Assembly (NCBI GenBank): GCA_035606695.1
Contig: DATNEW010000035.1
Location: 1-52,486, forward strand
From: Gemmatimonadaceae bacterium
Lineage (GTDB): Bacteria; Gemmatimonadota; Gemmatimonadetes; Gemmatimonadales; Gemmatimonadaceae
Direction of reading: 5' to 3'
DNA length: 52,486 nucleotides
Shown here: piece by piece, positions 764 through 42,538 of the stretch
How positions within the stretch are numbered: the stretch's first letter is position 1
Layout: each line of letters starts with the position of its first letter
The notes under the pieces: generated by a model
Seen by the model: only the letters and a program-made list of their open reading frames with translations
Database searches by the model: none
What the model was told of the DNA's origin: nothing
Position numbers and translations under genes: made by a program

Positions 764-2182
764 TCACGCATTCCGATCAATACACCCCGTAAAGTTCGGA
801 TTCGTCTTCTCATTGTCCGTCACCGGAAGATTCACATCCGTCCCATACGGCGGACCACCATTCTTGTGGAACGTCCCCGTCGGAAACACCGTGTCCGCCG
901 TCCGGCCATACTGACGCACCAACCGCCGCTCATCACCCAACCGCAGGCCGCGGCCAAACTGCCAGAACGCCTTCTCCCGGAAAAAGAGATCCGTCGCCGC
1001 CGTCGCATTCGCCGGCGTGGGTAACGCCGCCATCACCGGCACCACGAAGTTGCCCAGCGTCTGCGACGCCGTCCTCAGCGCATTCAACTTCGTCATCATC
1101 CCTGCGATATCCCCGGCCTTGAGCGCCGCCTCAGCCTCGATCAGTCGGGCGTCGAGCCCACTCACCACCGGAATCGGATCGCTCCGGTTCACCCAGATCT
1201 GTTGCGCGACGAGCGGCGTCACACCGTCGATCGACTTCGTGCCCGTGCCGACCGCTGACCCGGTCACCGGCACACGCGGATCCTTCGCCGACGCGAAGGG
1301 CAACGCATTTTTGATCCGCCCCGTGAAGTCGAAGCTGTCCCCGACGACGAACCGCGCGCGCGTCGACACCTGGCCGGCCAGATTCCAGATGTTGTTGTCG
1401 TTCGTGGTCTGCGAGAACGTGACGGTGTATTGAAAGTTCGTCGGCACGCCCCCCACCGCCGCCGCCGCTTCCGGGAACTTCGCCATGTCGATCAGCGTGC
1501 GGCCGCGCGTCACCGCGATCGCATTGCGAATGGAAACGGCAAAGGCATCGCTGCCCGTGGCCAGAGTCGCCGCCGAATCCAGATGCCCGATCGCGCGCGC
1601 GAAGACTTCCTGATTCGTCAGCGGGTTGGTGTAGGAGTACACCCCGTCCACCGTCTCACTCATCGGAATGCCGTTGCAGAACAACTCGGCCATGAGCATT
1701 TCTGTATAACCCATCGCCCAGAACTGCTCCGCCTGTTCGGCGGGCTTGTCGGCGACGAACTGCTTGAGCGCGTTGATCGCATCGCGGTATGACCCGCGCG
1801 CCTGCTGCATGCTGCTGTAGGCGCTCGAGAGCACCGAGTTGTTCGTCTGAATGACGCGCTGGTCGGTCTCGTTGTGCTGCGAGAACGTATCGCCAGACTT
1901 CCACACGTCCGTCAACACGTCGCCGAGCATGGCGGCGGTGGACTGATTGCCGTTGCCACCGCCCGGCGTGATCTGCTGCAAACGCCCCAGCGCGCCCACG
2001 CGCAGCGCTTCGGCGCCCGCGGCGCCGGCGCTCCCGATGTCGCCCGGGAGAATCGTTCCGGGCTGCTGCGGCGACAACAGATTGTCACGCACGCTGCACG
2101 CTGCCAGCGGGAGCATGGCGGCACTCAAGGCCAGCGAGACGCCCCTACGACTCCAGCCGCTCCAACGAGGGCGCTGGAACAC
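764..2182 (-). CDS. RagB/SusD family outer-membrane nutrient-binding lipoprotein
   Basis: Surface lipoprotein that caps the SusC channel and presents ligand for TonB-dependent uptake. The product has a lipoprotein signal ending LPLAAC, then a helical SusD-like body (for example YTEMLMAELFCNGIPMSE, a typical SusD stretch). I chose GTG at 2182 (472 aa). GAGGAA sits 8 nt upstream, and it puts the lipobox Cys at about residue 29. The longer ATG at 2248 (494 aa) also has a GAGG 9 nt upstream. That start would make a repeat element (2188-2227) encode the N-terminus and put 50 residues before the Cys. The gene follows susC on the same strand. The ligand cannot be read from the sequence. Confidence 0.88.
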   Translation of the reverse strand: MFQRPRWSGWSRRGVSLALSAAMLPLAACSVRDNLLSPQQPGTILPGDIGSAGAAGAEALRVGALGRLQQITPGGGNGNQSTAAMLGDVLTDVWKSGDTFSQHNETDQRVIQTNNSVLSSAYSSMQQARGSYRDAINALKQFVADKPAEQAEQFWAMGYTEMLMAELFCNGIPMSETVDGVYSYTNPLTNQEVFARAIGHLDSAATLATGSDAFAVSIRNAIAVTRGRTLIDMAKFPEAAAAVGGVPTNFQYTVTFSQTTNDNNIWNLAGQVSTRARFVVGDSFDFTGRIKNALPFASAKDPRVPVTGSAVGTGTKSIDGVTPLVAQQIWVNRSDPIPVVSGLDARLIEAEAALKAGDIAGMMTKLNALRTASQTLGNFVVPVMAALPTPANATAATDLFFREKAFWQFGRGLRLGDERRLVRQYGRTADTVFPTGTFHKNGGPPYGTDVNLPVTDNEKTNPNFTGCIDRNA

Positions 2183-2187
2183 TGATG

Positions 2188-2227
2188 GTTCCTCGCGTCG
2201 GCGATCCGCACCTTCGCTCGGAATTCC
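2188..2227 (-). repeat. GGAATTCC-type interspersed repeat upstream of susD
   Basis: Read on the minus strand, this copy starts GGAATTCCGAGCGAAGG and ends GCGAGGAAC, 5 nt before the proposed susD GTG start. The same element lies at 24980-25030 (before lpxA) and 42479-42520 (before der). In each case the GAGGAAC or GGGGAAC end can act as a Shine-Dalgarno sequence. Confidence 0.75.
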
Positions 2228-2266
2228 ACACGTCCGGCTATTCCGCATTTGTGGTCGCCTCGTCGG

Positions 2267-23703: not shown

Positions 23704-24968
23704 ATCGTCGCACTATCGCGCGCCCGGTGACACTCGAGGGAATCGGAGTGCACTACGGCGCGTCGTGCCGGTTGTCCTTTCGTCCCGCCGCCAGCGGGAC
23801 CGGCGTGGTATTTCGGCGCATCGACTTGCCGGGGCAGCCCGTCATCCCGGCGCTCGTCGACGTCGCCGTCCCCGTGGCCGCGCGCACCCAGCTCGGCGCC
23901 GATCCGGTGTCGATTCACACGCCGGAGCACGTGCTCGCGGCGGTGTTCGCCTGCGGCATCGACGATCTCGAGATCGAGCTCGACGCGGTCGAGCCGCCGA
24001 TCATGGACGGCAGCGCCGCCGCGTTCGTCGACGCGCTCCAACGCGCCGGATTCGCCGAGCAGCCGGGCGACGTGAAATACTTCACGCTCACGCGGCCGGT
24101 GTCGATCAACTACGACGGCGCGACGTACGAGGCGCTGCCCGCGCCCAACTTCGAGGTCAGCGTCGCCATCGAGTTCGATCATCCGGCCATCGGGCTGCAG
24201 CGCGGATGCTATCGCGTGACGGAAGAGTCGTTCGCCGCCGAGTTGGCGCCGGCGCGGACATTCGGGTTTCGAAAGTGGTTGGCGCCGCTCTTGGAGCAGG
24301 GTTTGGCGCGCGGGACGTCGCTCGACAACACGATCGTCCTCGAGGACGACGGCGGCGTGAGCGGCGACTTGCGCTGGCCGGACGAGTTCGTGCGCCACAA
24401 GGCGCTCGACTGCATCGGCGATTTTGCGCTGGCCGGCGCGCGCATGCGGGCGCGCATCAACGCGGTGCGGCCAAGTCACCGCGGGAACGTCAAATTGGTG
24501 CAGGCGATGAAAGAGGCAATCGCGAAGGAGACGAACGTGCTCGAGATAGAAGAGATCATGAAGGTGCTGCCGCACCGGTATCCGTTCCTGCTCGTGGACC
24601 GCATCCTCGAGATCGAGGCCGGCAAGCGGATCGTGGGGCTCAAGAACGTGACGATCAACGAGCCGTTCTTTCAGGGTCATTTTCCGGGGCATCCGATCAT
24701 GCCCGGCGTGCTGATCATCGAGGCGATGGCGCAGGTCGGCGGCATGCTGTTGATGGGCGCCGTGCCCGATCCCGAAAGCAAGGTCGTGTATTTCACGTCC
24801 TTGAACAACGTAAAGTGGCGGCAGCCGGTGAAGCCGGGCGATCAGCTGCGCTTCGAGCTCGAGCTGCTGCAGGTGCGCGGCATGATGTGCAAGATGTCCG
24901 GCGTCGCGAAGGTGGACGGGAAGGTGGTGGCCGAGGCGGAGATGGGCGCTGTCGTGAGAGATAAATGA
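23700..24968 (+). CDS. lpxC-fabZ: Bifunctional UDP-3-O-acyl-GlcNAc deacetylase / 3-hydroxyacyl-ACP dehydratase (LpxC-FabZ fusion)
   Basis: One 422-aa chain with two enzymes. Residues about 1-270 are LpxC, the zinc deacetylase committing UDP-GlcNAc to lipid A: HTPEH (73-77) holds a zinc His, and [14 protein letters not shown] holds the second metal-site His and Asp. Residues about 280-422 are FabZ, with [11 protein letters not shown], the catalytic His327 in [11 protein letters not shown] and the acidic residue in EAMAQ. FabZ uses the same hydroxyacyl-ACP pool that LpxA draws on. The fusion is known from Bacteroidota. It overlaps lpxD by ATGA. No internal start splits it and both active sites are intact. 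Confidence 0.95.
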
Positions 24969-24979
24969 GCTATCTCAGC

Positions 24980-25030
24980 GGAATTCCGAGCGAAGGTGCG
25001 AGCGAAGCGACGCGCCGCGGCGGGGAACAA
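24980..25030 (+). repeat. GGAATTCC-type interspersed repeat upstream of lpxA
   Basis: Begins GGAATTCCGAGCGAAGG at 24980 and ends GGGGAACAA at 25030, just 5 nt before the lpxA ATG. The GGGGAA end is the only Shine-Dalgarno candidate. The sequence in front (CTATCTCAGC) also resembles that of the der copy (CTATCTCTCTCGGC). It accounts for most of the only sizeable gap in the lpx run. Confidence 0.8.
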
Positions 25031-25035
25031 TCTCG

Positions 25036-25812
25036 ATGACGTCGAAGATTCATCCCACCGCCCTCATCGACTCGAGCGCGCAGATCGGCGCCGACGTCGA
25101 GATCGGGGCGTTCGCGATCGTCGGCGAGAATTGCGTGGTCGGCGACGGCTCGGTCGTCGCCGCCCGGGCGACGCTCGAGCGCAACGTGACGCTGGGCGCC
25201 GGCGTGAAGGTCGGCACCGGAACGGTGCTCGGCGGCGATCCACAGGATCTCAAGTACAAGGGCGAGCACACCGTCGTCGAGATCGGCGACGGCACGACGA
25301 TTCGAGAATACTCAACGATCAACCGGGGAACCACGCAGTCGTTCAAGACGACCGTCGGCAGCAACTGCTTCCTGATGTCGTACGTGCATCTGGCGCACGA
25401 CTGCCACATCGGTGACGGCGTGATCATCTCGAACGGCACGCAGCTCGCCGGGCACGTGACGATCGACGAGCGCGCGATCCTGAGCGGACTCGTGGCGGTG
25501 CATCAGTTCGCGACGATCGGCCGCTATTGCTTCATCGGCGGCTGCTCGCGCGTCGCCAAGGACGTTCCGCCTTACGTCAAAGCGGTGGGCAATCCGATCA
25601 AGCTGTACGGCTTGAACAGCGTCGGCCTGGAGCGCAACGGCTTTCCCGAGGATGTTCGGAAAGAGCTCAAGCGCGCGTACAAGCTGTTCTTCAAATCGGA
25701 GCTCAATTTGTCGCAGGCGCGCGAGCGCGCGCTGAACGAGCTTCGCGACTTTCCGGAAGTACAGGAATTCCTGGCGTTCTTCGAGCGCAGCAACCGTGGA
25801 TCGGTGATGTGA
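25036..25812 (+). CDS. lpxA: UDP-N-acetylglucosamine acyltransferase LpxA
   Basis: First acyl transfer of lipid A synthesis. The 258-aa left-handed beta-helix starts [20 protein letters not shown]. It contains GDPQDLKY (the E. coli NQDLKY equivalent), the catalytic His in VHLAHDCHIG, and GGCSRVAKDVPPYV, then a C-terminal helical domain. All match LpxA rather than LpxD. The start follows a repeat-derived GGGGAA site. The next gene starts at TGATG. Whether the acceptor is UDP-GlcNAc or its 3-amino analogue cannot be read from the sequence, but the neighbour raises the question. Confidence 0.95.
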   Translation: MTSKIHPTALIDSSAQIGADVEIGAFAIVGENCVVGDGSVVAARATLERNVTLGAGVKVGTGTVLGGDPQDLKYKGEHTVVEIGDGTTIREYSTINRGTTQSFKTTVGSNCFLMSYVHLAHDCHIGDGVIISNGTQLAGHVTIDERAILSGLVAVHQFATIGRYCFIGGCSRVAKDVPPYVKAVGNPIKLYGLNSVGLERNGFPEDVRKELKRAYKLFFKSELNLSQARERALNELRDFPEVQEFLAFFERSNRGSVM

Positions 25813-41194: not shown

Positions 41195-42538
41195 ATGGTT
41201 CGCGTAAAGGGCGTTCAGAACGACAGCATCGCGGAAGAGTTGGGGATCGCGCCCGGGACCGAAATCCTGTCGGTCAACGGCCGTGAGATCGCCGACTTCC
41301 TCGACTGGGAGTTTCTGACGGCCGACGACGAGCTCGTCATCGAGGCCAGGCAGCCGGACGGCGAAGCGATCGTCTACGAGATCGAGCGGCCGGAAGGCGA
41401 AACACTGGGCGTCGAGCTCGAGCCGCCCACCGTGCGCCGCTGCGCCAACCGCTGCGAGTTCTGCTTCATCGAAGGGCTGCCCAAAGGCCTTCGCAAGCCG
41501 CTCTACGTACGCGACGACGACTACCGCTTGTCGTTCGCCTACGGCAACTTCGCGACGCTCTCGAACGTGAAGGAGCGCGACATCGCGCGTATTCTCGAGT
41601 ATCGTCTGTCGCCGCTCTATATCTCGGTGCACGCGACGCCATGGGAAGCACGCAAGGTGCTGCTCAACAACCCGCGCGTGCCGAACATCGTTGAGCAGCT
41701 CACGCGGCTCGCCGAGGGCGGTATCCAGTTCCACGGGCAGATGGTCGTGGTGCCCGGCTTGAACGACGGCGACGTGTTGGAGCAGTCGCTCGCGGACCTG
41801 TATTCGTTCGGCGATGCGTGTCTTTCCGTCGCCATCGTGCCGGTCGGCCTCACGCAGTTCTCGCATCTCTACACCGGCAAGTCGATGGACCGCGATACGT
41901 CGGAGACCCTCCTCCGCGTCGTGGATCGCTGGCAGGCGCGCGCGCGCGATGAACGGGGCGACGCCTGGGTCTATGGTTCGGACGAGCTGTATCTCCTGGC
42001 CGAGCGCCCGCTGCCCGACGCGGAGTTCTACGGCGAATTTCCGCAGATCGAGAACGGCGTCGGCGCGGTCGCCGCGCTGCGCATGCGAGTCGACGAAGGC
42101 CTGTCGTCGCTCCCGCGGCTCGACGGCAAACGCATTGGCGTCGTGACCGGTGCGTCGATGCGCCCGCTGATGCCCGAGCTGCTCGAGAAGCTTGCGCGCA
42201 CGACGGGCGCGCGCTTCGAGCTCATCTCGGTCGACAACTCGCTGTTCGGGCCGACGACGACCACGGCGGGGCTGCTCGTCGGCGCCGACATTCGTCGCGC
42301 GCTCGCCGATCGTCACGATCTCGACATGGCGCTCATCCCGGCGGAGTGCATCAACGACTACGGCGTGTTTCTCGACGACGAGCCGTTCATCGCGCTGCGC
42401 GAGCTGATGAGCATGCCCGTCTATCCGTCGTACGACTTCATCGACGTCTTATCGTTCGAGGAGTCTATCTCTCTCGGCGGAATTCCGAGCGAAGGTGCGA
42501 AGCGCCGCAACGAGGAACAACCGGGAGAAGCCGCGTGA
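41195..42538 (+). CDS. DUF512 family radical-SAM-like iron-sulfur protein
   Basis: A 447-aa protein with an N-terminal PDZ-like domain (about 1-60, GIAPGTEILSVNGREI) and a cysteine cluster C-x3-C-x2-C in CANRCEFCFIEGLPKGLR, a radical-SAM-type 4Fe-4S site. The DUF512 domain follows. Family function is unknown; it very often neighbours der, as here. The last ~20 residues (GIPSEGAKRRNEEQPGEAA) are encoded by the interspersed repeat at 42479-42520 and are probably an acquired tail. The stop overlaps der by GTGA. Confidence 0.9.
   Translation: MVRVKGVQNDSIAEELGIAPGTEILSVNGREIADFLDWEFLTADDELVIEARQPDGEAIVYEIERPEGETLGVELEPPTVRRCANRCEFCFIEGLPKGLRKPLYVRDDDYRLSFAYGNFATLSNVKERDIARILEYRLSPLYISVHATPWEARKVLLNNPRVPNIVEQLTRLAEGGIQFHGQMVVVPGLNDGDVLEQSLADLYSFGDACLSVAIVPVGLTQFSHLYTGKSMDRDTSETLLRVVDRWQARARDERGDAWVYGSDELYLLAERPLPDAEFYGEFPQIENGVGAVAALRMRVDEGLSSLPRLDGKRIGVVTGASMRPLMPELLEKLARTTGARFELISVDNSLFGPTTTTAGLLVGADIRRALADRHDLDMALIPAECINDYGVFLDDEPFIALRELMSMPVYPSYDFIDVLSFEESISLGGIPSEGAKRRNEEQPGEAA
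42479..42520 (+). repeat. GGAATTCC-type interspersed repeat upstream of der
   Basis: Begins GGAATTCCGAGCGAAGG at 42479 and ends CGAGGAACAA at 42520. It lies in frame at the 3' end of the DUF512 gene and 14 nt before the der GTG. Third copy of the family at 2188-2227 and 24980-25030. Confidence 0.8.

Follow-up and report, generated by a model that had tools for sequence, protein, structure and literature searches.

A short REP-like repeat sits in coupled operon junctions of a Gemmatimonadaceae genome, and we put at about 0.48, close to even odds, the reading that it is kept there because the next gene stays translated, through a Shine–Dalgarno (SD) sequence, a relay reading frame or read-through. 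Profile searches and predicted folds show a hairpin-forming, non-coding repeat family that has expanded in one species. The sequences establish the location of its copies, the covariation of its predicted stems, its lineage-specific insertion and the phase of the reading frames that cross it.

The window (the whole stretch of DNA analysed, 52,486 nucleotides) contains the 17-mer GGAATTCCGAGCGAAGG exactly at 2227-2211 on the minus strand and at 24980 and 42479, which confirmed the claim of an earlier note on this DNA that the repeat found before susD also precedes lpxA and der. At up to 3 mismatches there were 4 matches in the window compared with 0.35 per shuffle, and 0 of 100 shuffles reached 4; across the whole genome, 186 matches to the 17-mer at the same tolerance compared with 13 to the reversed pattern placed it far above chance. 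An nhmmer profile made from full copies found 94 copies of the element, at 69 loci, in the 2.29 Mb of genome read here, which is the scope of the locus counts. The element model is 45 bp long, with the consensus CGGAATTCCGAGCGRAGGYGCGNAGCGCCGNAGYGAGGAACNATN and the layout TTCC-GA-GC-GNA-GGYGC-GNA-GCGCC-GNA-GC-GA-GGAA. One strand is predicted to fold into TTCC/GGAA and GC/GC stems around G.A-type loops, with an inner GGYGC/GCGCC hairpin; in the three-base loops the middle base is free and the flanking G and A are fixed. Stem bases changed on both sides at four pairs (T-A to C-G, C-G to T-A, G-C to C-G and C-G to T-A). Compensatory cells numbered 8, against 0.8 in shuffles (0 of 500 shuffles were as high), and this covariation signal was lost when the partner strand was slid. 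The TT/AA pairs at columns 6-40 and 7-39 were paired in 97% of cells. All 19 multi-copy clusters were head-to-tail and none was head-to-head. In an array of three copies at G000:C15 ~164622-164778 (L201), TTTC/GAAA changes keep the hairpin and abolish GAGG, which suggests that the structure itself is under constraint and weighs more than the SD.

Descriptions of REP-type repeats usually place them downstream of genes and away from start regions. In this genome, among the 67 loci at which both neighbours were known, 56 were co-directional, 8 divergent and 3 convergent. At co-directional junctions the median residual gap was 21 bp, some 10 bp separating the element from the stop upstream and some 13 bp from the start downstream. 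Of the 67 loci, 29 lay in co-directional gaps no longer than 30 bp, against 2.9% expected per intergenic base, and 2 lay in gaps longer than 120 bp, against 42% of intergenic bases. Placement relative to gene junctions is thus strongly non-random, which supports this part of the earlier note's proposal. Orientation was also biased, with 39 sense and 17 antisense copies in co-directional junctions (p=0.005). Occupied junctions often match sites that in congeners have overlapping or near-touching stop and start codons; they include those of lpxA, ftsA, mraY, rplI, rpmA, ruvX and pdhB. At rpmA (ribosomal protein L27), the antisense copy G000:C35:155031-155075 (L098) puts about 60 bp between a conserved SD-like GAGCGAG and the start, and the upstream region shows no obvious replacement SD or relay frame.

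The same genome carries two related, older REP families, B (GTCATTCCGAGC...CGAGGAAT, CGTC-REP-like) and C (GTCATCCCGAGCGGAGGCGCGAAGCGCCGGAGTCGAGGGA). Their copies, at C1, C9, C13, C19 and other sites (L173, L100-L110, L151-L162), often form inverted pairs, with elements of about 100 bp. Families B and C were convergent at 20 of 77 loci (p=0.0004), with residual gaps of 82 and 96 bp that are somewhat inflated because dimer partner arms were not always matched, which leaves the convergent contrast unaffected. In their placement B and C resemble published REPs, unlike the present family. In its parts the present family resembles B's outer stem placed round the core of C, minus the GTC tag, which suggests a hybrid origin.

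We counted 57 occurrences of the 21-mer GGAATTCCGAGCGNAGGNGCG in this genome and a single one in a congener, whereas a sample of 393 other genomes of the phylum had none; five unrelated single matches were found in proteobacterial metagenome bins. We compared 18 genes across three congeners: none of the orthologous junctions has a full copy, and several are ATGA or TAATG overlaps there. One congener has a partial REP-like remnant before fabF, and the single congener copy (L046) lies at a site that is empty in this genome. The empty congener junctions, together with the different site of L046, indicate that insertion was recent and independent. The genome gave no match to Y1_Tnp (PF01797; RAYT-type transposase), and RAYT mobilisation was rejected on that ground. 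Flanking direct repeats of at least 6 bp numbered 7, against 11.6 expected, so target-site duplication was rejected apart from two loci with 10-11 bp repeats. One of these two is the mraY copy G000:C21:3237-3281 (L125), flanked by the 11-bp direct repeat CATTTTGATTT.

Two of the window's copies bear on how translation might continue across an insertion. The first lies between lpxC/fabZ and lpxA:

24979-25032, plus strand: element copy between lpxC/fabZ and lpxA, its inner hairpin extended (nhmmer profile match)
24965-25039, plus strand: putative relay mini-ORF, which starts within the ancestral ATGA overlap; its terminal TGA shares bases with the lpxA ATG at 25036

In congeners this junction is an ATGA stop/start overlap. 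Here the ATGA is retained at the upstream stop and opens a 24-codon frame that runs through the element to lpxA, where its TGA overlaps the new ATG at 25036; this is the clearest case of a relay mini-ORF. An apparent lpxC/fabZ-lpxA fusion in congeners was rejected as an artefact of overlapping matches, the true junction being the ATGA overlap. The lpxA copy carries GGGG rather than GAGG, a weaker SD match. The second copy precedes der:

42478-42522, plus strand: element copy preceding der; it is read as the C-terminus of the radical-SAM/DUF512 gene upstream, at 41195-42538 (profile match)
42523-42527, plus strand: GGGAG, the likely der SD, outside the element

The element forms the end of that upstream gene, which ends ...GIPSEGAKRRNEEQPGEAA. 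The GAGG of the element ends 19 nt before GTG 42535, and the separate GGGAG stands 7 nt before that start, so the assertion that the repeat always ends in a usable SD fails at der.

A frame joining the upstream stop to the downstream start was present at 21 of 46 junctions (all element junctions with gaps of 30-200 bp), compared with 4.7 expected from gap-matched element-free junctions (Fisher 3.5e-8). Because a stop-free repeat alone would raise this count, we shifted the phase inside the element with its ends in place, and relays fell from 21 to 9 and 5 (p=0.001). Under a strict definition the present family had 11 relays, and 1-2 after phase shifts. Strict rates were raised in families B and C too (2/11 and 4/22, small numbers), so the relay effect is not unique to the present family. 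We rejected a conserved peptide, as the relay frames differ in frame and occur in both orientations; ribosome passage, and not the peptide, would therefore be what matters. By these counts the relay reading frame, overlooked earlier, is statistically a stronger apparent link to translation than the SD.

The earlier note had the repeat landing exactly in the initiation slot and donating the ribosome-binding site. GAGG or GGGG ended 4-13 nt before an in-frame start at 15 of the 39 sense loci, susD and lpxA among them but not der. Random placement within the same short gaps predicted 13.6 of 35, so the SD position itself is not tuned, and exact landing in the SD slot was rejected, there being no gain over this positional null. 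An SD 4-mer at canonical spacing was found at 49% of sense-locus starts, 18% of antisense ones and 21% of those at element-free junctions (gaps 31-150 bp). Gene starts came from a simple purpose-written caller, and the SD peak was recovered without the SD having been used in choosing starts. Antisense copies fill the same slots without offering an SD. A few copies end in NATG and so supply the start codon as well. Donation of a ribosome-binding site thus held up in part: the 15 sense loci, the 39:17 orientation bias and the 49% against 21% frequency of the SD speak for it, and the placement does not.

The susC-susD junction illustrates the ambiguity that such a copy can create:

2184-2228, minus strand: element copy at the susC-susD junction (nhmmer model match and reading of the sequence)
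2191-2194, minus strand: GAGG of the element, 8 nt before GTG 2182
2180-2182, minus strand: GTG, candidate susD start, which would give a 29-residue stretch up to the lipobox Cys
2246-2248, minus strand: ATG, ancestral susD start, in frame through the element (GIPSEGADRRREEPS) (position match to congeners)
2258-2261, minus strand: native GAGG, 9 nt before ATG 2248, with CGAGG at the same place in congeners

On the minus strand GAGGAAC at 2194-2188 is followed by CATCA and then by GTG 2182-2180, which bears out the claim that this copy ends 5 nt before a start. The junctions of congeners (L278, L285, L287, L288) read TAA...CGAGG...ATG and that of this genome reads TAA CCGACGAGGCGACCACAA ATG at 2248; because the layouts match, we take ATG 2248 as the ancestral start. 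The element begins seven codons after it, in frame. The SusD N-terminus is ambiguous, as had been proposed: ATG 2248 keeps the ancestral ribosome-binding site, and GTG 2182, 3' of the element, would bring the signal peptide back to its ancestral length up to the lipobox cysteine. Both starts are plausible. The gene caller placed this start wrongly, at 2116. The name susD rests on position beside a SusC-type TonB receptor; at E<=0.001, Pfam matched the receptor and gave no match for the susD lipoprotein (window 764-2182), which has many relatives in congeners at 45-56% identity. Copies G000:C41:177979-178080 (L188) and G000:C50:261089-261133 (L124) lie in frame ahead of apparent signal peptides (GIPSEGAKRRSEEQS...), with the same start ambiguity. 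Positions 1-589, at the start of the window, hold the 3'-terminal part of a 23S rRNA gene together with a 5S rRNA gene.

In our preferred reading, an insertion between or beside coupled genes would as a rule isolate the downstream gene, and the copies that survive would therefore be those that keep the next gene translated. In sense copies the GAGG/GGGG end would act as an SD. In either orientation a stop-free frame could carry the ribosome from the upstream stop to the downstream start, as a relay mini-ORF; alternatively, the element could be absorbed into the upstream C-terminus or the downstream N-terminus. In the predicted fold of sense copies the SD is part of the hairpin's 3' arm, and a ribosome moving in from the upstream side should therefore open the hairpin. 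That would make the element a mobile translational coupler; its effects on translation, and selection as the cause of the pattern, are inferred. A stronger version, which we think unlikely, is that the 45-bp hairpin repeat is a mobile translational-coupling cassette that spreads to operon junctions where genes overlap or nearly touch and links them again by means of its own mini-ORF and internal SD. If so, dozens of housekeeping operons in a single species would have had their translational coupling rewired by a selfish repeat.

The most serious alternative, possible although we do not favour it, is that the repeat goes in, by insertion or copying, at any site where no gene is broken and has simply ended up in short operon gaps; a hairpin strand rich in GC and purines and poor in stops would yield SD-like ends and open frames incidentally. 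The fit of SD placement to the positional null agrees with this, as does the relay count, since the consensus has no stop in any of the six frames and even the shifted controls, at 9 and 5, exceed background; 16 co-directional loci (9 of 39 sense and 7 of 17 antisense) show none of the scored features. Such tolerance leaves unexplained, however, the avoidance of long gaps (2 loci against 42% of intergenic bases), the contrast with families B and C, the frame-phase bias of 21:9:5 and the orientation bias of 39:17.

Messenger-RNA-level roles within operons have been proposed for classical REPs, and an intercistronic hairpin might here affect mRNA processing, stability or differential expression of operons, or mask the start as a switch. 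A strong, conserved hairpin with covariation, an SD in its paired 3' arm and the location of nearly all copies inside predicted operons are what such control would lead one to expect. Mean predicted folding energy, however, is about -16 kcal/mol for sense RNA and only -11 kcal/mol for antisense RNA, yet a third of the copies are antisense; the genes downstream of copies are varied housekeeping genes without a shared theme; and Rfam 15 covariance models gave no match at the gathering threshold in the window and, when six loci were scanned, none at E<=1 at the element. We regard RNA-level control as improbable. Targeting of the repeat to the initiation slot as a ribosome-binding-site donor, the model of the earlier note, is more improbable still: it accommodates the 15 of 39 sense loci whose SD stands at a usable distance and the few NATG ends, but it finds no precision beyond the short gap, 24 of the 39 sense loci and all antisense loci do not use the SD in this way, der has a native SD and the ancestral ribosome-binding site persists at susD.

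If translation of the next gene does preserve these copies through SD and relay functions, the family shows how mobile DNA can invade the most tightly constrained positions of a genome and leave the host viable, and dozens of matched pairs would be available for testing what translational coupling needs. One family in the stop–start junctions of essential operons of a single species forms a natural series of filled and empty sites. Our literature searches, within one collection of papers, found no paper tying REP elements or MITEs to translational coupling, and those for REP with Shine–Dalgarno returned unrelated papers only, which is not proof of absence.

Among known systems, CGTC-tagged REPs have an unpaired CGTC at one end and a stem that starts with complementary A/T pairs, form mostly head-to-head dimers with negligible head-to-tail ones and have no dedicated transposase; they hug the upstream 3' end, at a varying distance from the downstream ORF (Di Nocera, De Gregorio and Rocco 2013, PMC3733652). 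The present family is likewise a short palindrome with an AT-starting stem, high copy number and no dedicated transposase, as judged here by the lack of a PF01797 match, and it shares its outer stem with the typical family B copies of the same genome. Unlike those REPs, it has no CGTC tag (CGGA precedes ATTCC, where family B has GTC), has two stacked stems with G.A-type internal loops, is arranged head-to-tail and never head-to-head, avoids convergent gaps and hugs both the upstream and the downstream gene. With the GTAG REPs that have RAYT transposases (REPINs, BIMEs) it shares many dispersed hairpin copies and the absence of a visible target-site duplication, but its consensus has no GTAG, its genome no Y1_Tnp (PF01797) and its copies no inverted pairs. 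It also differs from a MITE, in which terminal inverted repeats go with a target-site duplication. Like Rickettsia palindromic elements it is tolerated in coding sequence (at der, trpB and susD-type loci), although where it is coding it mostly forms gene edges and junction mini-ORFs rather than parts of protein bodies. The mini-ORFs open and close in overlaps of the kind that couple genes by stop and start codons (ATGA, TAATG), with an SD near their end; unlike in such coupling, the coupling sequence here would come from a dispersed repeat.
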